In this document: positions 28,821 through 42,789 of the stretch, one piece after another
Position numbering within the stretch: position 1 is the stretch's first letter
Layout of the letters: each line of letters begins with the position of its first letter
NCBI RefSeq assembly: GCF_015351235.1
Contig: NZ_JADKSJ010000001.1
Location: forward strand, 2,001,668 to 2,065,667
Source: Plantibacter sp. VKM Ac-2880
GTDB taxonomy: Bacteria > Actinomycetota > Actinomycetes > Actinomycetales > Microbacteriaceae
Length of the DNA stretch: 64,000 nt
Reading direction: 5' to 3'
Made by a program: the position numbers and the translations under genes
Notes under the pieces: model-generated
The model's input: the letters and a program-made list of their open reading frames with translations, nothing else
Database searches by the model: none
Told to the model about the DNA's origin: nothing

Positions 28821-28893
28821 TGGGCCCTGCCGGGATCGAACCGACGACATCCACGGTGTAAACGTGGCGCTCTACCAGCTGAGCTAAAGGCCC
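28821..28893 (-). tRNA. tRNA-Val (anticodon TAC)
   Basis: Read on the minus strand, acceptor arms GGGCCTT and AGGGCCC pair (one G-T), the anticodon stem CCACG/CGTGG encloses TTTACAC with TAC, and the T-loop is TTCGATC. The 73-base cloverleaf is complete without an encoded CCA. Confidence 0.95.
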
Positions 28894-30141: not shown

Positions 30142-31203
30142 TCAGGGCGTCGAGACGGCGAGCTCCTCGCGGACGATGGATGTCCCCGCACTCAGTGCAC
30201 TCAGCTTCTTCCAGGCGAGGTCTCGGGGCAGTGGCGCCATGCCGCAGTTCGTGCTCGGGAGGAGCAGGTCCGCGTCGACGAACCGGAGGGCGCGTCGCAG
30301 GGTGTCGGCGACCTCCTCGGGCGTCTCGACCGTCTCGCTCGCCACGTCGATGGCTCCGAGCATGACCTTCTTCCCGCGGACGAGCTCGATGAGTTCCATC
30401 GGGACGCGGGAGTGGTGGCATTCCAGCGAGACGATGTCGAGCGAGGACCGCTGGAGGAGCGGGAACGACTTCTCGTACTGCCGCCACTCCGACCCGAGGG
30501 TCGCCTTCCAGTCAGTGTTCGCCTGGATGCCGTAGCCGTAGCAGATGTGCACGGCGGTCTCCACTCGGAGTCCTTCCGCCGCCCGCTCCAGAGCGGCCAC
30601 TCCCCAGTCCTGCACCTCGTCGAAGAAGACGGTGAAGGCGGGCTCGTCGAACTGGATGATGTCGACTCCCGCAGCCTGAAGAGCTCTCGCCTCCTCGTTG
30701 AGGATCGTCGCGAACTCCCAGGCCAGCTGCTCCCGGCTCCCGTAGTGATGGTCGGAGAGGGTGTCGATCATCGTCATCGGGCCGGGCAACGCCCACTTGA
30801 TCGGCTGATCGGTCTGCTCACGCAGGAACCGGGCGTCGTCTGCGAACACCGGCTTCTCGAGGCCCACGGCACCGACGACGGTCGGCACGCTCGCGTCGTA
30901 CCTGTCGCGGATGCGCACGGTCTCGCGCCGCTCGAAGTCGACGCCCGTGAGGTGCTCGATGAACGTCGTGACGAAGTGCTGGCGGGTCTGCTCCCCGTCG
31001 CTGACGATGTCCATGCCTCGGTGGAGCTGCTCGTGGACAGCAGCGCGGAGGGCGTCCTGCTTCCCCTCGACCAGGGCGTCGCCGGTCAGCCTCCACGGCG
31101 ACCACAGGGTCTCGGGCTGTGCAAGCCAGGACGGCTTCGGCAGGCTGCCGACGATCGAGGTGGGCAGGAGCGGGAGGGCCGTCGAGGATCCGCGGGCGGT
31201 CAT
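30142..31203 (-). CDS. mesD: Core methionine synthase, MesD-type (folate-independent)
   Basis: This 353-residue protein corresponds only to the catalytic barrel of cobalamin-independent methionine synthase and lacks the N-terminal folate-binding half of MetE. Zinc ligands are visible as His219 and Cys221 in VHICYGYG and Cys320 in PSTNCGMAPL. The homocysteine-binding DEPAF lies at 186-190. Its gene overlaps a DUF1852 gene by four bases. That pairing defines the MesD/MesX class of folate-independent methionine synthases, which in characterised bacteria needs oxygen and an unidentified methyl donor. It is the last gene of a metY-headed operon. Confidence 0.82.
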   Translation of the reverse strand: MTARGSSTALPLLPTSIVGSLPKPSWLAQPETLWSPWRLTGDALVEGKQDALRAAVHEQLHRGMDIVSDGEQTRQHFVTTFIEHLTGVDFERRETVRIRDRYDASVPTVVGAVGLEKPVFADDARFLREQTDQPIKWALPGPMTMIDTLSDHHYGSREQLAWEFATILNEEARALQAAGVDIIQFDEPAFTVFFDEVQDWGVAALERAAEGLRVETAVHICYGYGIQANTDWKATLGSEWRQYEKSFPLLQRSSLDIVSLECHHSRVPMELIELVRGKKVMLGAIDVASETVETPEEVADTLRRALRFVDADLLLPSTNCGMAPLPRDLAWKKLSALSAGTSIVREELAVSTP

Positions 31204-32192
31204 CGGACCGCCTCCGTGTGCCCGGCGGCCCACTGCCGCAGCCGTTCCCCGTGAGGCTTCATCAGGTACTCGTCCGCGAACTTCCCCTGCTCGACCGCGA
31301 GCCGGCCTCGCTCCTCTCGGTCGTAGGCCACCGCTGGCCGCGCGTAGTCCTGCTCCTCCAGGTTCGGCCGGTAGACGTCGGCGGCGGCCGAGCGCGCACC
31401 GTAGATCTCGGGCCGGTAGATCTTCTGGAACGTCTCCATGGTGCTGATGGTGGCGATGAGCTGGAGGTCCGAGTAGTCCTCGAGCAGGTCGCCGCCCGAG
31501 TAGAACGCGAGCGGCGCCGCGCTGCCGGGCGGCATGCAGAAACGGGCCCGCAGGCCCATCTGCGCGAAGTACCGGTCGGTCAGCGAGAGCTCGTCCTGTC
31601 GGTACTCGACGCCGAGGATCGGATGGCGGCTCCCGGTGCGCCGGTACGTCCTGCTCGTCGAGACGCTGATGCAGATGACGGGCGGCGTCGGTGCGAGCTC
31701 CGCGTACTGCGCGGAGGCGAGGAAGTGCTTGAAGAGCGCGCCGTGCAGGACGCCGAAGTCGTCAGGGACGGTGAATTCCGTCTGCGAGGCGTTGACCGCC
31801 GGCAGCCGCACGCTGAAGTCGTGGTCGCGGAGGTAGGACGAGAAGTTGTTCCCCAGGGTTCCGGGCTGACATCGACCGGTGCGGCCGTCGACGATCCTCG
31901 TGCGCAGGATCTCGAGGAGCGGGAACTCTTGGTCCCTGTCGTCCGCGGTGAGGTGCAGGCCCACGGAGACGATGTCGAGTCCGACGGAGTAGCGGCCCCG
32001 GCTCGGATCGTCGCCGGGCACGAGGTCGTTGAACCGGTCGTCGATCATCGCCAGCGCCGTGCGAAGGTTCTCCTTGCGGCGCTCACCCCGGGCCAGATTG
32101 GCGAAGTTGGTGGTGATCCGGGAGCTTTCCGCCGGCGAGTAGTCCTCGTCGAAGGACGTGATGGTCGTACTGAAGGTGAACTCGTTCGTCAT
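31200..32192 (-). CDS. mesX: DUF1852 protein, MesX partner of MesD
   Basis: This 330-residue protein matches DUF1852, the family named MesX because it is required with MesD for methionine synthesis. Markers are FTFSTTITSFDEDYSPAESSR, its core DEDYSPAESSRITTNFANLA, and GALFKHFLASAQYAELAPTPPVICISVSTS near the middle (core LASAQYAELAPTPP). ATG 32192 begins the conserved region. The ATG of mesD overlaps its stop, while a 60-base gap separates it from the flavin monooxygenase gene upstream. A role in supplying or activating the methyl group is likely, but the chemistry is not established. Confidence 0.82.
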   Translation of the reverse strand: MTNEFTFSTTITSFDEDYSPAESSRITTNFANLARGERRKENLRTALAMIDDRFNDLVPGDDPSRGRYSVGLDIVSVGLHLTADDRDQEFPLLEILRTRIVDGRTGRCQPGTLGNNFSSYLRDHDFSVRLPAVNASQTEFTVPDDFGVLHGALFKHFLASAQYAELAPTPPVICISVSTSRTYRRTGSRHPILGVEYRQDELSLTDRYFAQMGLRARFCMPPGSAAPLAFYSGGDLLEDYSDLQLIATISTMETFQKIYRPEIYGARSAAADVYRPNLEEQDYARPAVAYDREERGRLAVEQGKFADEYLMKPHGERLRQWAAGHTEAVR

Positions 32193-32252
32193 GATCGGCC
32201 GTTCGATAGGAGAGACAGAGCGGGGTTCGACTGGCTGGATGTGCGGGTGCAC

Positions 32253-33563
32253 CTACGTTCCGAACAAGTTCGCGCGCGTCCCGCCGGACGCAAGCTCGTC
32301 GCGGAGCACCCCGCGCCGCCTCAGGACGGGGACGAGGTCGTCGAGCATCCGATGCAGGGTGACCGGGTGCAGGTCCCCTGAGAAGAGGAGGCCGTCGTTG
32401 CCGCCGTCGTCGCCGAGCTCCTCGACGAAGTCGGCGAACTGCTCCGCGGTGCCCACGAAGCCGGCGCGGTCGGCGACAAGGCCTTTGCGCGCCTTCCGGG
32501 TGAGCAGCTCACGCAGCGGTGCGTCCGCGGTGTCGCCGTACAGGCCAGCGATCGTGCCGTGCGAGACATGCTCGCCGAAGACCGACCGCTCGACAGGGCG
32601 ATCCAGATCCAGGCCCGTCAGATCGGTCTCCAGGTCGCTGGACCAGCCGAGCGCGATCTGCCGCAGTGTGCTCTCCTCGGGGTGCCGCGACGCCTCGACG
32701 ACGCGCACCGCTTCCTCGGGGCTCGCGACGATCTCGGGCTTCAGGACGAAGAGGATCCGCAGGTCGTCGGCGGTCCTGCCCTGCAGCTGGGCCGCGGCGA
32801 GGACTCTCGCCCGATAGGCGCGGACCGCCTGCGCCTCCAGCGGGGCGAGCGCGAGCTGCACGTCCGATTGCGTGCCGGCGAAGGCCAGACCTCGGGGGGA
32901 ACCGCCGGGTGAGACGACGATCGGGTCGCCGTTCGCGAACGGGGCGGCGTTCAGCGGGCCGTCCACGCGGAAATGCTCACCGCGATGCTGGAACGCGTCG
33001 ATGCGCGCCCCGTCGGCGTATCGACCCGATCCGGTGTCGGCGACCAATGCACCCTCGCCCCAGCTGTGCCAGAGCTTGCGGACGATCGCCATCCACTCGT
33101 CGGCCCGGTCGTAGGCCGCGTCGTGCGACAGCGGTTCCAATCCGACATGGCGGGCGCTGCCCACGTCGGTGACGAGGTTGATCCCGAAACGGTCTGAGCT
33201 GAGGTGCTGCAGCGTCGCGGCCTGCCGCGCGGCTAGGTACGGCGGCGTGATCCCGGCGTTGATCGTCGGCGCCAACCCGATCCGAGTGGTCGCGGCGAAC
33301 AAGTAGGGCGCCAGGAGGAGCGGGTCGTGTTTGGGTCCGCCGTACGCTCCCCGCACCCGCAGGTCGAGCGTGTCCGGGGAGCCGAGCGAGACGGCGTCCT
33401 CCATCACGATCAGCTCGAAGCCGGCCTGCTCCAACTCGCGGGCCGACTGCTGGTAGAGCTCCGGCTTGGTCCAGTCGTGGTTCCACTCCTGGTACGGATG
33501 CCCCCAGCCCTGCGGCCCGAATCCGCGGGAGAAGAACCAGCCGAAGTGCTGACGACGCGTCAC
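32253..33563 (-). CDS. Flavin-dependent monooxygenase, NtaA/SnaA/DszA (LLM) family
   Basis: This 436-residue luciferase-like barrel protein uses reduced FMN and oxygen. It starts HFGWFFSRGFGPQGWGHPYQ and carries family motifs such as GINLVTDVGSARHVGL near 130 and VVSPGGSPRGLAFAGTQSD near 220. Relatives split C-N or C-S bonds, for example nitrilotriacetate, dibenzothiophene sulfone and dimethyl sulfide monooxygenases. Its GTG overlaps the metY stop by four bases. No flavin reductase gene is adjacent, so reduced FMN must come from elsewhere. An organosulfur substrate is inferred from the operon. Confidence 0.82.
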   Translation of the reverse strand: MTRRQHFGWFFSRGFGPQGWGHPYQEWNHDWTKPELYQQSARELEQAGFELIVMEDAVSLGSPDTLDLRVRGAYGGPKHDPLLLAPYLFAATTRIGLAPTINAGITPPYLAARQAATLQHLSSDRFGINLVTDVGSARHVGLEPLSHDAAYDRADEWMAIVRKLWHSWGEGALVADTGSGRYADGARIDAFQHRGEHFRVDGPLNAAPFANGDPIVVSPGGSPRGLAFAGTQSDVQLALAPLEAQAVRAYRARVLAAAQLQGRTADDLRILFVLKPEIVASPEEAVRVVEASRHPEESTLRQIALGWSSDLETDLTGLDLDRPVERSVFGEHVSHGTIAGLYGDTADAPLRELLTRKARKGLVADRAGFVGTAEQFADFVEELGDDGGNDGLLFSGDLHPVTLHRMLDDLVPVLRRRGVLRDELASGGTRANLFGT

Positions 33564-34930
33564 GCTCGCGCCTTTTCGGTCAGGGCGCGCACGGCAGCCA
33601 GCCCGCGGTCCAGATCCCGAAGGAGGTCGTCGACGTCCTCGATGCCGATCGACAGCCGGAGAAGACCCGGATGGATGCCGGCGGCGGCCCGTTCGGCCGG
33701 AGTGCGCCCGGCGTGCGTGGTCGACGCCGGGTGCAGCACCAGGGAGCGCACGTCGCCGAGGTGGGTCATGTGGCTGAAGAGCTCGACGGCGTCGGTGAAG
33801 GCGGCCGCGCCTGCTTCGCCTCCGGCCACGGTGAACGAGAAGACCGAGCCCTGACCGCGGGGGAGCAGCCGCTGCGCGAGCGCGAACGACGGGCTCGACT
33901 CCAGACCGGAGTAGTCCACCGAGACGACCTCGGACTGTCGTTCGAGGAAGCGGGCGACGGCGAGGGCGTTGCTCGAGTGCCGCTCCACCCGAAGCGACAG
34001 CGTCTCGATGCCCTGCCGAAGGAGGAACGAGTTCAGCGGCGACGGCGTCGGGCCCAGGCGCGACACCACGATGTCGCGGGTGTAGGAGACGAACGCGCTC
34101 CTGCCCCGCTGCTCGGCCCAGCTGTGCCCGTCGAACGCGCGCTCCGCCTGGTTCAGGTGCGGGAAGAGCGCGGGTCGCGCGCCCCAGTCGAAGGTGCCGG
34201 CATCGACGATCACGCCGCCGAGGGCGGCACCGTGCCCGGCCAGGAACTTGCTGGTCGAGTGGACGACCACGTCGGCCCCGTGCTCGATCGGCCGCAGGAG
34301 GTACGGGGTGGCGAGCGTGTTGTCGACGACGAACGGGAGCCCGTGCCGGTGGGCGATCGCCGCCAGCGCAGGCACATCGAGCAGGTCGTTCTTGGGATTC
34401 GGGATGGGCTCACCGAAGAGCACGCGGGTGTCGGGTCCGATCCGGCGCTCCCACTCCTCGAGATCGCCGGCGTCGTCGACGAAGTCCACACCGATCCCGA
34501 GCCGTCCGAAGTTCTGTACCAGCAGCCCGCGATTGCCCTCGTACAGCCGACGCGACGAGAGCACCCGGTCGCCGGCCTGCACGATCCCCAAGAGCGCGGA
34601 GGCGGTAGCTGCCTGCCCACTCGCCACCAGGATCGCCTCAGCCCCGCCCTCGAGGTCGGCGATCCGCCGCTCGACCTCCTCGGTGGTCGGGTTGCCGTTG
34701 CGGGTGTACACGTACCCCTCGTCCTCGCCGGCGAACCGCTCCCGTGCATGCTCGAAACTGTCGAACACGAAGCCGGCGCTGAGGTGGACAGGAGTGACCC
34801 GCGCCCCGTGCGCACCGTCGGGCACGGCACCCGCGTGCACCTGACGGGTCGTGAAGCCAGCAGCCGCGGAGGACTGCAGTGCGGGCGCCGATCGCGAGAT
34901 CGTGGCGGCTGCCGGGGCGGTGATGGTCAC
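33560..34930 (-). CDS. metY: O-acetylhomoserine sulfhydrylase
   Basis: This PLP enzyme makes homocysteine from O-acetylhomoserine and sulfide, and can make methionine from methanethiol. The 456-residue protein has the cofactor lysine Lys228 in VVVHSTSKFLAGHG, the YTRNGNPTTEEVERR motif, and VVDNTLATPYLLRPIEHGAD. GTG 34930 is chosen because AGGAGC lies seven bases upstream; an ATG 75 bases further up is less likely. It is the first gene of the operon with the monooxygenase, mesX and mesD, giving both halves of methionine formation. Confidence 0.88.
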   Translation of the reverse strand: MTITAPAAATISRSAPALQSSAAAGFTTRQVHAGAVPDGAHGARVTPVHLSAGFVFDSFEHARERFAGEDEGYVYTRNGNPTTEEVERRIADLEGGAEAILVASGQAATASALLGIVQAGDRVLSSRRLYEGNRGLLVQNFGRLGIGVDFVDDAGDLEEWERRIGPDTRVLFGEPIPNPKNDLLDVPALAAIAHRHGLPFVVDNTLATPYLLRPIEHGADVVVHSTSKFLAGHGAALGGVIVDAGTFDWGARPALFPHLNQAERAFDGHSWAEQRGRSAFVSYTRDIVVSRLGPTPSPLNSFLLRQGIETLSLRVERHSSNALAVARFLERQSEVVSVDYSGLESSPSFALAQRLLPRGQGSVFSFTVAGGEAGAAAFTDAVELFSHMTHLGDVRSLVLHPASTTHAGRTPAERAAAGIHPGLLRLSIGIEDVDDLLRDLDRGLAAVRALTEKARA

Positions 34931-35110
34931 GGGATGCTCCTGTCCGGGCGCCTGGGAGGCTGATTCCGTGAGCCTGGCAGGTTGCGGAGGGTACGCGCCA
35001 GACATGACGGACTATGACCGCGGGCGTGTGCGGTGCATGCGTGCCCACTGGTCCACGGTGTTGCCGTGAGCCTGGTGGGGTAGGTCATCCCTCGACACCT
35101 GTTAGCGTCT
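34931..35110 (-). promoter_or_regulatory. Leader region of the metY operon
   Basis: The region holds two copies of CCGTGAGCCTGG (34966-34977 and 35064-35075 on the plus strand), a small hairpin CACGG-TGTTG-CCGTG near 35056-35069, and a possible 14-codon minus-strand peptide at 35012-35056. No known SAM riboswitch pattern could be fitted. Control by methionine or sulfur state is likely, but unproven. Confidence 0.35.
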
Positions 35111-35128
35111 GGGTGTGGTGGGGGCCCG

Positions 35129-35752
35129 ATGAAACGAAGACGACTTGGCGTGGTGTTGAGCGCCGCAACGTTGCTCCTCGCGGGGTGCGCGCACGCTCCG
35201 GATCCCGACCCGGGGTGGCGCGCGCAGGCAGACGCAGCCCGAGACGCTGCGCTGGGCGCGTTGTCTGACTACGAGCTCACCGGAGACACCGGCTACGAGG
35301 TCATGGGCGACCGACTGCTGGACCGATGCGGAACCCTGACCTCAGATCAAGGAGGATTCCGAGACCGTCACGTGGAAGGGCACGCCTGCACGGCTGTGCG
35401 CACGGTTGTCCTCACGGTGCCGAAGCGCGCCGACGAGGATGACACGGCCGAGCACCTGCTTCAGATGCTCGATGCGGCAGGGCTGCATGACGATGTCGAC
35501 GATGCTGATCGACCTGGCACATACATCGAGCACTATTTCTACGCGGGCCACGGGCATCAGGTCCACGTTCGGGGAATCGTCGAGACGGACGCTGAGGAAC
35601 AGCGCATCGACCTGTTCGACGACGAATACCCCTGGCTGTATCGCCCCGTCGTCATCAGCGAAACCGGCGGCTGGCTCGACGGTTCACCGGTGCGCGGGAC
35701 CGCGATCATCATCGCGATCAGCATCACCTACTTCGACAACGTCGGCGTCTGA
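35129..35752 (+). CDS. Putative lipoprotein of unknown function
   Basis: This 207-residue protein has a clear lipoprotein signal: positively charged MKRRR, a hydrophobic stretch and the lipobox LLLAGC with Cys18 as the lipidated residue. The mature part is acidic and begins AHAPDPDPGWRAQADAARDA, a helical segment. I do not recognise a family; the ending VRGTAIIIAISITYFD suggests a beta sheet. It is expected on the outer face of the membrane. It is divergent from the metY operon and monocistronic. Confidence 0.7.
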   Translation: MKRRRLGVVLSAATLLLAGCAHAPDPDPGWRAQADAARDAALGALSDYELTGDTGYEVMGDRLLDRCGTLTSDQGGFRDRHVEGHACTAVRTVVLTVPKRADEDDTAEHLLQMLDAAGLHDDVDDADRPGTYIEHYFYAGHGHQVHVRGIVETDAEEQRIDLFDDEYPWLYRPVVISETGGWLDGSPVRGTAIIIAISITYFDNVGV

Positions 35753-36501: not shown

Positions 36502-38805
36502 ATGCCTCACCCTGATGCGACCGCTGACCATGGCGTGGAACTCGAAATCGGCGGCATGACGTGCGCGTCGTGCGCTATGCGAATCGAGAAGAAGCTGAAC
36601 CGGCTCGATGGGGTGACAGCGACGGTGAACTACGCGACGGAGAAAGCACGCCTAACCGTCCTGGCCGGGTACGACGAGCAACTACTCATCAGCGAGATCG
36701 AGAAGACCGGGTACACCGCAGCCCGGCCGTCAGCGCCGGCCGAGCCGGCCGGCGCTGACGCGCCTGATGCGGAACTGACGAGCCTGCGGAACCGCCTGAT
36801 CGGTAGCGTGATCCTTACGGTGCCGGTGATCGTGCTCGCGATGATCCCGGTGCTGCAGTTCACGTATTGGCAGTGGCTCTCGTTGACGCTCGCGGCTCCG
36901 GTGATCGTGTGGGCGGGCTGGCCTTTCCACAAGGCCGCGTTCACGAACCTGCGTCATGGTGCTGCGACGATGGACACGCTGGTGTCGGTCGGAACGTTGG
37001 CGGCGTTCGCATGGTCGCTGTACGCACTGTTCTTCGGCATGGCAGGCATGCCCGGCATGACGCACGGATTCGAGTTCACCGCTGACCCGCTGGGCGGATC
37101 GAGCAACATCTACCTTGAGGTCGCCGCCGGGGTGACCATGTTCGTGCTCGCCGGGCGCTACTTCGAGAAGCGTTCCAAACGACAAGCCGGTGCTGCATTG
37201 CGTGCGCTGCTGCAGCTCGGCGCGAAAGAGGTCGCCGTCCTCCGCCAGGGGCGTGAGCTGCTGATCCCGATCGAAGAGTTGTCGGTCGGTGATGAGTTCG
37301 TGGTGCGGCCGGGTGAGAAAATCGCGACCGACGGCGTCGTGGTCGACGGTCGCAGTGCCGTGGACGCGTCGATGTTGACGGGCGAGTCGGTGCCGGTCGA
37401 GGTCTCCGAAGGGGACGTGGTTGCTGGAGCGACGGTTAACGCCGGGGGCAGGCTGGTTGTGCGTGCAACGAAGGTCGGCGCGCACACCCAGTTGGCGCGG
37501 ATGGCGCAGCTGGTCGAGGACGCCCAATCGGGCAAGGCTGACGTGCAGCGGCTCGCCGACCGCCTGTCAGGAATATTCGTCCCGATCGTGTTCGCGTTGG
37601 CGGTCATCACCTTCGCCGGCTGGCTGCTCGCCGGGTGGCCGATCGAGGCGGCCTTCACCTCGGCGGTCGCGGTGTTGATCATCGCCTGCCCGTGCGCTCT
37701 CGGACTCGCGACACCGACGGCGCTGCTGGTCGGCACCGGCCGTGGAGCTCAGCTCGGCATCCTCATCAAGGGTCCTGAAGTACTCGAGTCCACTCGCCGT
37801 ATCGACACCATCGTGCTGGACAAGACTGGAACGGTCACCACTGGGCGGATGAGTGTTCGCCAGGTGCTCCCGGCTGCCGGCACGCCGACCGAGGAGCTGC
37901 TGCGGATCGCGGGCGCTGTGGAGCACGCTTCCGAGCACCCCATCGCTCGTGCCATCGCCACTGCGGCCGCCACTCATGGCCAACTCCCACCGGTTGAGTC
38001 CTTCCAGAACCGGGAAGGACTGGGCGTCGAGGCGATCGTCGAGCGGCACTCGGTGATCGTCGGACGCGAAAGCCTGCTGGCCGATTGGTCACTGGAGCTG
38101 CCCGCGGAGCTCGCCGCGCAGAAGGCAGCTGCCGAAGCCGACGGGGCGACCGCCGTGGCCGTCGCCTGGGACGGTCTGGTGCGTGGCATCATCACCGTCG
38201 CGGACGCGGTCAAGCCCAGCAGCGCCGAAGCCATCGCCGAACTGCGCCGGCTCGGTCTCGATCCGATCCTGCTCACCGGCGACAACCGGTCCGTCGCGGA
38301 CCGGATTGCCAGTGAGGTCGGCATCAGCACGGTCATCGCGGAGGTCCTACCCGAGGGAAAGGTTGACGTGATCCGTCGCCTGCAGGCAGAGGGTCGAAGC
38401 GTGGCGATGGTCGGCGACGGCGTGAACGATGCCGCAGCCCTTGCCGCCGCTGACCTGGGGTTGGCGATGGGCACGGGAACGGACGCTGCTATCGAAGCAG
38501 CCGATCTGACCCTCGTGCGCGGAGATCTGCGCGTCGCGGGTGACGCTATCCGTCTGGCCAGGCGTACCCTCGGCACCATCAAAGGCAACCTGTTTTGGGC
38601 GTTCGCGTACAACGTTGCAGCGATCCCCCTGGCAGCGTTCGGTCTGCTGAACCCGATGATCGCCGGCGCGGCGATGGCCTTCTCCAGCGTCTTCGTCGTC
38701 GGCAACAGCCTCCGACTGCGCAGCTTCTCCAGCCGCATCACAACCTCACCGTCACCGACGGCACTCCGAGACACCGCGTCCGCAACCGAAAGGATCGCCG
38801 CATGA
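36502..38805 (+). CDS. copA: Cu(I)-exporting P1B-type ATPase
   Basis: This 767-residue pump exports cuprous ions. It has one N-terminal metal-binding domain (GMTCASC, Cys21 and Cys24), a membrane CPC motif at about 396-398 ([15 protein letters not shown]), the phosphorylated Asp near 440 in DKTGT, the SEHPIARA nucleotide-binding motif, and the hinge [12 protein letters not shown]. The start ATG 36502 lies 32 bases after copZ. Its stop overlaps the YHS-domain gene by four bases. Confidence 0.95.
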
Positions 38806-39125: not shown

Positions 39126-41294
39126 ATGACTGACCACACCGGGCACCACACCCCGACACCCCCGCAGGTGCCCACCGAGCACGCACCAGCACCGCACTGG
39201 GAGCACAGGGGACACGCCGGCCACGGCGAGCACCCCGACAAGGCTCACGCCGGGCACGGTGGGCATGCCGGTCACGGGGACCACGTCGGTCAATTCCGAC
39301 GCCTGTTCTGGATCATGCTCGTGCTCGCGGTCCCAGTCGTGGGGTTCTCGCCGATGTTCGCGATGATCCTCGGCTATCCGCTGCCCGACGCGGCATGGGT
39401 GGCGTGGATCTCGCCGGTGCTGGGCACTGTCATGTATGTGTGGGGAGGGCGACCATTCCTCACCGGGGCTGTCGGCGAACTGCGCACCCTGAAGCCGGGG
39501 ATGATGCTGCTGATCGCGTTGGCGATCACGGTCGCGTTCCTCGCCTCCTGGGGCGCATCGCTAGGGCTGCTGGACCATGAACTCGACTTCTGGTGGGAAC
39601 TCGCCCTGCTGATCGTGATTATGCTGCTCGGACACTGGATCGAGATGCGCTCCCTCGCGCAGACAAGCTCAGCGCTCGACTCTCTGGCGGCACTGCTGCC
39701 GGATGAGGCGGAGCGGGTCGATGGTGACACCACGGTGAGCGTCGCGCCCGCTGATCTGCGCCTTGATGATGTGGTCGTCGTGCGGCCGGGTGGGCGTGTG
39801 CCGTCGGATGGGCAGATCGTGTCCGGCTCGGCGAGCATGGACGAGTCGATGATCACCGGCGAGTCCAAGACCGTGCGTCGCGGCGAGGGCGACCACGTCG
39901 TCGCTGGCACCGTGGCCACCGACTCCGGCCTGCGGGTGCGAATCACCGCAGTCGGTGAGGACACAACCCTGGCTGGCATCCAGCGCCTCGTCACCGAAGC
40001 GCAGAACTCCACCTCCCGGGCGCAGCGCATCGCCGATGTCGCGGCACGATGGCTGTTCTGGTTCGCGCTAGGCGCCGGCATCATCACGATGATCGTCTGG
40101 AACCTGATCGGGTTGCCCGACGAAGCCGTCGTGCGCACGATCACCGTCCTCGTGATCGCGTGCCCGCATGCACTCGGACTGGCCATTCCGCTGGTTGTCT
40201 CGATCGCCACCGAGCGGGCAGCACGCGGCGGTGTCCTGATCAAGGACCGGCTGGCGTTGGAGAGCATGCGCACCGTCGACACGGTGCTGTTCGACAAGAC
40301 CGGCACAGTCACCAAGGGCGAACCCACCGTCACCGCGATCGAACCAGTCGGAGACCTGACGGCAGACAACGTCCTCGCCCTGGCTGCCGCAGCTGAGACG
40401 GACTCGGAGCACCCGTTGGCGCGCGCCGTCCTGACCGCAGCAACCCACCGAAGTCTGACAGTGCCTCGAGCCACCGACTTCTCCTCCTCGCCAGCGGTCG
40501 GCGTCTCCGCGACCGTCGACCGAGCTCGCGTGCAGGTGGGCGGGCCGAACCTGCTCGAACAAGCGCACCGAGCCGAGCTGCAGGTCGCCGACGAGTGGAG
40601 GCAGGACGGCGCGATCATCCTGCACGTGCTCCGCGATGGTGAGGTCGTCGGTGCGCTGAAACTCGCCGATGAGATCCGCGAGGAGTCCCGGCAGGCCGTC
40701 GACGCACTCCACGCCAGCAACGTGCAGGTCGTGATGATCACGGGCGACGCGGAAGCCGTCGCGAGGTCCGTCGCCTCCGAACTCGGCATCGACCGCTACT
40801 TCGCGGGGGTCCGGCCCGAGGACAAGGCCGACAAGGTGAAGGAGCTGCAGAGCGAGCACCGCCGGGTGGCGATGGTCGGCGACGGCGTCAACGACGCTCC
40901 GGCTCTCGCACAAGCCGATGTCGGCATCGCGATCGGTGCCGGCACCGACGTCGCGATCGCATCCGCAGGCGTCATCCTTGCTTCATCCGACCCGCGTTCC
41001 GTGTTGAGTGTCATCGAACTCTCCCGGGCAAGCTACCGGAAGATGCGGCAGAACCTGTGGTGGGCCGCAGGCTACAACCTCATCTCCGTGCCGCTCGCCG
41101 CTGGCGTGCTGGCCCCGATCGGGTTCGTGCTCCCCATGTCTGTCGGTGCGGTCCTGATGTCACTGTCTACGATTGTCGTAGCGTTGAACGCACAACTGCT
41201 GCGTCGCCTGCAGCTCGACCCCGAGACGAGCGCCCGCACAGCTCTGGCCCAGAGCACCCACGACGCCCGAACACCCGCCACTGCCACCAGGTGA
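39126..41294 (+). CDS. copB: P1B-type copper-transporting ATPase with CPH motif (CopB-like)
   Basis: This second copper pump has 722 residues. It lacks the CxxC domain and has instead a histidine-rich N-terminal tail (GHAGHGEHPDKAHAGHGGH, residues about 37-56). The membrane metal site is CPH at about 346-348 (IACPHALGLAIPL), which is typical of CopB-type Cu(II)/Ag pumps. The DKTGT phosphorylation site and [12 protein letters not shown] hinge are intact. It complements the CPC-type CopA encoded just upstream. Confidence 0.9.
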   Translation: MTDHTGHHTPTPPQVPTEHAPAPHWEHRGHAGHGEHPDKAHAGHGGHAGHGDHVGQFRRLFWIMLVLAVPVVGFSPMFAMILGYPLPDAAWVAWISPVLGTVMYVWGGRPFLTGAVGELRTLKPGMMLLIALAITVAFLASWGASLGLLDHELDFWWELALLIVIMLLGHWIEMRSLAQTSSALDSLAALLPDEAERVDGDTTVSVAPADLRLDDVVVVRPGGRVPSDGQIVSGSASMDESMITGESKTVRRGEGDHVVAGTVATDSGLRVRITAVGEDTTLAGIQRLVTEAQNSTSRAQRIADVAARWLFWFALGAGIITMIVWNLIGLPDEAVVRTITVLVIACPHALGLAIPLVVSIATERAARGGVLIKDRLALESMRTVDTVLFDKTGTVTKGEPTVTAIEPVGDLTADNVLALAAAAETDSEHPLARAVLTAATHRSLTVPRATDFSSSPAVGVSATVDRARVQVGGPNLLEQAHRAELQVADEWRQDGAIILHVLRDGEVVGALKLADEIREESRQAVDALHASNVQVVMITGDAEAVARSVASELGIDRYFAGVRPEDKADKVKELQSEHRRVAMVGDGVNDAPALAQADVGIAIGAGTDVAIASAGVILASSDPRSVLSVIELSRASYRKMRQNLWWAAGYNLISVPLAAGVLAPIGFVLPMSVGAVLMSLSTIVVALNAQLLRRLQLDPETSARTALAQSTHDARTPATATR

Positions 41295-42516: not shown

Positions 42517-42789
42517 ATGGCGACGATCGTTGACGAGGCAGTGGATGTCGATCTGGCGGCGGATGGGGATCCGACGGCGTTCGTCTGGAAGCGGTTCGAG
42601 CACCGTGTCGTGGGTCAGCCTCAGGCGTTGTTCTCTCGCCAGCCGTGGTGGCGGGGTGACGCGTCGCCTGCACGTATCGACATCGAGACGTGGCGGGTCG
42701 ACGCGGCTCGCGGCGATGAGGAGCCCACGCGCTACGACCTCCGCCGCGACACGACCGGCAGATGGACGCTCGCGGTCGCCTGGACGTGA
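42517..42789 (+). CDS. DUF6504 protein associated with the DnaE2 mutasome
   Basis: This 90-residue soluble protein is directly downstream of the LexA box and overlaps dnaE2 by four bases (GTGA). Its sequence, including FEHRVVGQPQALFSRQPWW near the middle and RYDLRRDTTGRWTLAVAWT at the end, matches the DUF6504 family found beside imuB/dnaE2 in actinobacteria. The ATG at 42517 has GGAGGG upstream. Its function is unknown; genomic context implies a role in translesion synthesis. Confidence 0.72.
   Translation: MATIVDEAVDVDLAADGDPTAFVWKRFEHRVVGQPQALFSRQPWWRGDASPARIDIETWRVDAARGDEEPTRYDLRRDTTGRWTLAVAWT

Follow-up and report, generated by a model that had tools for sequence, protein, structure and literature searches.

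A cassette of four minus-strand genes was analysed in a stretch of 64,000 nt from Plantibacter sp. VKM Ac-2880 (NZ_JADKSJ010000001.1), here called the window, whose own genome is G000 in the genome comparisons. The genes encode a MetY-like enzyme of the O-acetylhomoserine sulfhydrylase family, a luciferase-like flavin monooxygenase (LLM), MesX (DUF1852, a putative oxygenase) and MesD, a core methionine synthase with the catalytic domain only. The cassette was found to join two modules, metY-LLM being one conserved unit and mesXD another, because metY adjoins the LLM gene at 88 of the 96 places read in the family and the stretches read around mesX at 80 loci from other genomes showed no relative of this LLM. 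In the reading preferred here, to which a probability of about 0.65 is given as a whole, the metY-LLM pair serves sulfur supply and the mesXD pair methionine synthesis, with the LLM outside the methyl-donor chemistry. MesXD is also the only methionine synthase detected in its own genome.

Two conserved modules in one cassette

The metY-like gene (33560-34930, minus strand; PF01053, 392.7 bits), for which an alternative longer reading from an ATG start extends the open reading frame (ORF) to 35005, overlaps the LLM gene (32253-33563, minus strand, GTG start; PF00296, 104.6 bits) by 4 bases (33560-33563). Similarly, mesX (31200-32192, minus strand; PF08908, 485.6 bits) overlaps mesD (30142-31203, minus strand; PF01717, 116.3 bits) by 4 bases (31200-31203), and a gap of 60 bases (32193-32252) lies between the LLM gene and mesX. 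These places, both overlaps and the gap had been given in an earlier sequence-only reading of this DNA and agreed with the sequence when re-read. The same four genes in identical order, with proteins 94–99% identical to those of the window, were found in one further species of the genus (G005, locus L163), and the order is therefore not an assembly accident. The sequence-only reading had taken the four genes for one operon; the genes and overlaps were borne out, but the single unit was not, the cassette being two modules brought together.

The metY-LLM module was followed in 398 genomes of the family, where the LLM forms an orthologue clade of its own, defined by at least 60% identity, a line set after gaps in the score lists were seen; adjacency counts were based on tblastn. 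The clade was found in 98 of the 398 genomes, 95 of which entered the reading of metY at 96 places (G159, G348 and G321, the last with its LLM in two pieces, were left out). The 88 places with an adjoining metY comprise 75 tandem and 13 divergent pairs, and the proposed link between the LLM and the MetY-like enzyme thus proved strongly conserved. LLM relatives at about 40–45% identity form a group below the clade, and the three members read have no adjoining metY. A spread of the clade outside the family was also considered and dropped, as only one of the three matches obtained beyond the own genome in 396 phylum genomes (E up to 1e-60) lies outside the family, with 45% identity and no metY within 1.5 kb. 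MetF taking the place of MesX beside metY-LLM was likewise rejected, since metF was found near the pair in 1 of the 78 stretches read (G250, L189). No description of the metY-LLM module, or of the metY-LLM-mesXD arrangement, was found in the openly licensed PMC papers searched.

The mesX neighbourhoods were read in the best 80 of 544 loci found in other genomes, a set dominated by near relatives, in which 71 of the 80 loci have at least 4 kb on both sides. A LysR gene lies within 4 kb in 68 of these loci, a flavin or FMN (flavin mononucleotide) reductase was found in 38 (25 of PF01613 type and 13 of FMN_red type), and metY in one (L080). The sequence-only reading had staked its account on an LLM conserved beside mesX in relatives, and the survey largely went the other way; the LLM as a conserved partner of MesX was rejected on these neighbourhood counts.

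MesD/MesX is the folate-independent methionine synthase of Price, Deutschbauer and Arkin 2021 (PMC7857596). According to the available excerpts of that paper, in which the methyl source was unknown, the Sphingomonas genes mesD and mesX were enough by themselves to rescue E. coli mutants in metE and metF, relatives in other bacteria required MesX and oxygen and did not require MetF, and MesD was the apparently sole synthase in 85 proteomes, 69% of which lacked MetF. The window resembles the system of those excerpts in holding both families in adjoining genes, without a folate domain and in a genome without MetF, and flavin reductases lie near many relatives. It differs in that its mesXD pair follows metY-LLM and has neither LysR nor a reductase nearby, and in that the exchange with metE-metF is visible inside one genus. 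In Acinetobacter baumannii the DUF1852 gene was strongly repressed by vitamin B12 and a flavin reductase gene was repressed too (PMC12892962), and two strains appear to escape nitrous oxide via MesD homologues (PMC13059711). PMC12366255 and PMC12478193 are about other methionine synthases and PMC11003636 merely cites the MesD paper; the available excerpts of all five papers name no methyl donor for MesD.

Exchange of the folate route for mesXD

Five of the seven genomes of the genus (G001–G004 and G006), all without mesXD, carry metE and metF side by side, and one MetE of the genus was checked as full length. Neither metE nor metF, the latter sought as PF02219, was found in the two cassette genomes (G000 and G005). 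The MetH activation domain (PF02965) was found in 0 of the 7 genus genomes, by a search that a split MetH without that domain would escape. The searches for MetE, MetF and the MetH domain were positive in 10, 7 and 11 of 14 control genomes, respectively. In the family, MesX was found in 74 of the 398 genomes (0 of the 14 control genomes with the same search), and full MetF, defined by E up to 1e-25 with a line set after gaps in the score lists were seen, occurred in 4 of the 74 genomes with MesX versus 174 of the 324 without. Stratified by genus (18 genera, 138 genomes), the odds ratio was 0.016 (p 1.6e-10), and the exchange between MesX and MetF was perfect in genera g1, g5, g8, g21 and g46. 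The stratified tests, here and below, exclude genera with a single listed genome and genomes absent from the printed tables, and genomes share ancestry within genera, so that events are fewer than genomes. MesXD is accordingly the sole methionine synthase detected in the own genome, because metE, metF and a typical metH were not found there while MesX and MetF are near-exclusive in the family.

In a tree of the LLM made by a quick method (38 rows), the window and G005 group with genus g35 (SH-aLRT 99), apart from two genus mates, and the native metY-LLM pair of the genus gave no match between its conserved flanks in G000 and G005. We infer that, in the lineage of the window species and G005, both modules of the cassette were probably gained and the native metY-LLM and metE-metF pairs lost.

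Predicted chemistry and surroundings of the modules

The LLM scored above the PF00296 cut-off (27.9) and, with 254.4 bits against TIGR03860 (NtaA/DmoA), under the cut-off of that model (279.7); judged by these scores, an NtaA/DmoA-type label needs softening. Its AlphaFold2 model, with a predicted local distance difference test (pLDDT) score of 91.3, gave full-length fold matches (VIA Z up to 39.0, root-mean-square deviation (rmsd) 3.1 over 399), and BdsA/DszA, CmoJ/YtnJ and DmoA were among the nearest solved relatives by profile and fold comparison. The LLM shares with these enzymes the fold and full-length similarity (VIA Z 36.8–39.0, Foldseek E 1e-25 to 1e-31), and FMN reductases adjoin some of its relatives. 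It differs from them in being only about 25–32% identical, in falling below the TIGR03860 cut-off and in belonging to a clade of its own that is tied to metY. The placement of the LLM in a C-S-splitting group by the sequence-only reading is therefore upheld as to these relatives and weakened by the missed cut-off and by LadA, HcbA1 and RcaE, which are as close. Reading the substrate from the structure was rejected, relatives with and without C-S chemistry being tied. The likely role of the LLM, judged from the enzyme families, is to split a C-S bond and feed the MetY-like enzyme.

The MetY-like enzyme barely passed the subfamily cut-off of TIGR01326 (495.8 against 495.1), stayed under that of NF005872 (538.8 against 703) and reached none of the equivalog cut-offs among the matches listed (25 of 45 families). 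A typical MetY, with 809.8 bits against NF005872 (cut-off 703), is encoded beside metX on another contig of the own genome. The window's protein thus resembles the O-acetylhomoserine sulfhydrylase MetY in matching PF01053 and, narrowly, TIGR01326, and differs in being 47% identical to the metX-adjacent MetY and under the equivalog cut-offs; on this comparison it is a divergent paralogue, and the "MetY" label needs softening. Two loci, L191 (G013) and L195 (G157), hold two metY-like genes near the LLM gene (58% and 52% identical to that of the window).

Sulfur-starvation operons for C-S cleavage come with MsuE/SsuE reductases. The metY-LLM loci resemble them where an MsuE-type FMN reductase adjoins the pair, in 5 of 78 clustered loci (one scored, 178.9 versus a cut-off of 212.5), and differ in having a MetY-like enzyme as their constant partner. 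Additionally, a PatB-like C-S lyase occurs near the pair in a cluster of 5 of the 78 loci (one scored, 266.9 versus 340), and a cystine-like ATP-binding cassette (ABC) transporter lies beside it in L170, all of its scores below equivalog cut-offs, with matching clusters in L171. No sulfonate transporter was found among the annotated genes of the metY-LLM loci. These neighbours, present in few relatives, point to sulfur work for the metY-LLM pair.

MesX matched PF08908 far above the cut-off (25) over its full length (positions 1–323 of 323). Its AlphaFold2 model (pLDDT 89.9) found no solved structure with Foldseek under E 0.001 (best 0.32), and the best match with VIA had Z 3.7 and rmsd 4.8 over 112; for this model, the lack of a match to solved structures does not establish a new fold, and the cofactor cannot be read off. 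MesD (353 amino acids) has PF01717 as its sole Pfam match, with no folate-binding N-terminal domain, and scored 640.8 against NF006589 (cut-off 392). In an alignment with the MetE of a genus mate, the zinc ligands H, C, E and C are kept and the S, E and D positions for homocysteine align too (residues as named in excerpts of PMC7857596).

In the first module, whose pairing was observed and whose chemistry is put forward from the enzyme families, the LLM would open a C-S bond in an organosulfur compound with O2 and with reduced FMN delivered by a reductase whose gene lies elsewhere. The sulfide or thiol so released would then be joined to O-acetylhomoserine by the MetY-like enzyme. In the second module, MesX, probably an oxygenase dependent on reduced flavin and O2, would make a methyl group, which MesD would move to homocysteine. 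The union of the modules would probably reflect a common service to methionine supply, and a shared demand for reduced flavin may contribute.

Riboswitch control of the cassette was considered and rejected after Rfam scans. At the gathering threshold the whole window gave three tRNAs only and no riboswitch, positions 34700-35700 gave no match at E up to 1, and neither did 20 relatives with a short piece upstream of metY only; 15 relatives with longer stretches gave tRNAs and tmRNAs only. A conserved operator upstream of metY was also discarded, because the enriched words from 70 upstream stretches fell within a divergent LLM gene in 11 of the 12 hits read, and no motif is claimed. One tRNA gene (28821-28893, minus strand; Rfam) lies about 1.2 kb past the mesD end of the cassette. 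At the other end, two large ORFs (36502-38805 and 39126-41294), which we take by their motifs to resemble copper-type P-type ATPases, separate the cassette from a gene for 1103 amino acids at 42762. The counterpart of that gene in G005, together with a neighbour of 131 amino acids, directly adjoins metY.

The union of the modules and competing explanations

Several results weigh against the two-module reading. Four of the 74 MesX genomes retain full MetF, and metY is missing from the 1 kb around the LLM gene at 8 of the 96 places, 7 of which belong to genus g5. Not all of the nearest solved relatives of the LLM are C-S-cleaving enzymes, with NTA (nitrilotriacetate) monooxygenase, LadA, HcbA1 and RcaE equally near, and the reductase queries used detected no flavin reductase in the window. 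In the raw counts, LLM and MesX show a strong tendency to occur together (odds ratio 7.3), and in 6 of the 44 family genomes that have both, no more than 13 kb separate mesX from the LLM gene, about 0.3 such cases being expected under the assumption of 3.8 Mb genomes and uniform placement.

The latter counts bear on the view that the modules are chance neighbours, mesXD having landed behind an expressed metY-LLM pair without functional meaning, which is unlikely. Such a view would fit the direct union of mesX and LLM in just 3 of the 398 family genomes (G000, G005 and G372) and their co-occurrence within genera, which is not significant (p 0.16; 18 genera, 132 genomes); as the raw odds ratio fades there, co-occurrence was dropped as evidence. 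However, closeness was found in several arrangements, the distance from mesX to the LLM gene being at most 3 kb in two further genomes (G324 and G394) and about 12.4 kb in another (G114). After the two genus mates were collapsed, 5 close cases stood against about 0.3 expected (P about 2e-5 in a simple uniform model), of which fewer may be independent, G114 being a near relative of the window at the locus and G372 and G394 belonging to one genus. The union is more than chance and far from obligatory, and the 6 close cases among 44 genomes make a loose pathway link among methionine-supply genes likely.

Somewhat less probable still is a salvage of S-alkyl amino acids, in which the LLM, acting like CmoJ, would remove the alkyl group from an S-alkyl derivative of homocysteine or cysteine and yield homocysteine for any methionine synthase, instead of the LLM and the MetY-like enzyme handling freed inorganic sulfur. 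CmoJ splits the sulfoxides of N-acetyl S-alkyl cysteines, which gives an aldehyde and a sulfenic acid (PMC10863075, in excerpt), and CmoJ/YtnJ, the cystine-like transporter of L170 with its matching clusters in L171 and the PatB-like lyase in its 5-locus cluster would all suit this route, but LLM relatives of other chemistry score equally and the supporting neighbours are few.

A single aerobic route from organosulfur compounds to methionine, with the LLM supplying sulfur and an additional methyl or one-carbon source to a folate-free core methyltransferase (MesXD or another), appears very doubtful. It is suggested by a different core methyltransferase of PF01717 type (cMS), which was found directly upstream of metY-LLM at L167:470-1657, L168:6732-7919 and L170:12277-13551, and about 1.1 kb from metY at L200:314-1525. 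The cMS occurs in genera g35 and g36 and in 4 of the 8 LLM genomes that lack both full MetF and MesX (G115, G221, G261 and G298); in the alignment, all four zinc ligands are present in the g36 type and the glutamate is missing from the g35 type (that of L167). Weak PF01717 hits of similar length occur in members of the genus that have MetE, and therefore cMS need not be a methionine synthase. If the single route were true, cMS-metY-LLM would be a further folate-free route to methionine.

The proposal of the sequence-only reading, that methanethiol, sulfide or a methyl carrier is set free by the LLM and that the leftover one-carbon unit serves MesD/X as methyl donor, could draw on the direct adjacency of the modules in G372 and in both cassette genomes of the genus, the closeness in G324, G394 and G114, the 42 of 74 MesX genomes with this LLM and without full MetF and the PF01717-type gene directly upstream of metY-LLM in g35 and g36, but it is hardly credible, given the absence of the LLM from the 80 mesX loci read elsewhere, the 30 of 74 MesX genomes without this LLM, the 54 of 98 LLM genomes without MesX and the finding, in excerpts of PMC7857596, that mesD and mesX are enough in E. 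coli. Its corollary, that the linkage may point to the missing methyl donor, is likewise not supported, the LLM belonging to the separate conserved metY-LLM module. E. coli has other LLM enzymes (SsuD and RutA), a small loophole in the complementation argument. On complementation (PMC7857596, in excerpt) and distribution together, the LLM is probably not part of the methyl-donor chemistry of MesD and supplies sulfur instead, as the two-module reading has it.

The locus is real and mostly a new arrangement of known parts. What makes it informative is that mesXD stands in for metE-metF and that the metY-LLM pair is conserved. The search for the methyl donor is thereby steered away from the LLM, an attractive neighbour that is a member of a separate module. 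Compared with the available excerpts of Price et al. (PMC7857596), the exchange of mesXD and metF inside genera is an addition. Seen in the genus and repeatedly in the family, it amounts to a natural experiment, and the genome evidence supports a methyl group that bypasses MetF. Matched strains with and without mesXD are suited to labelling work on the methyl source.

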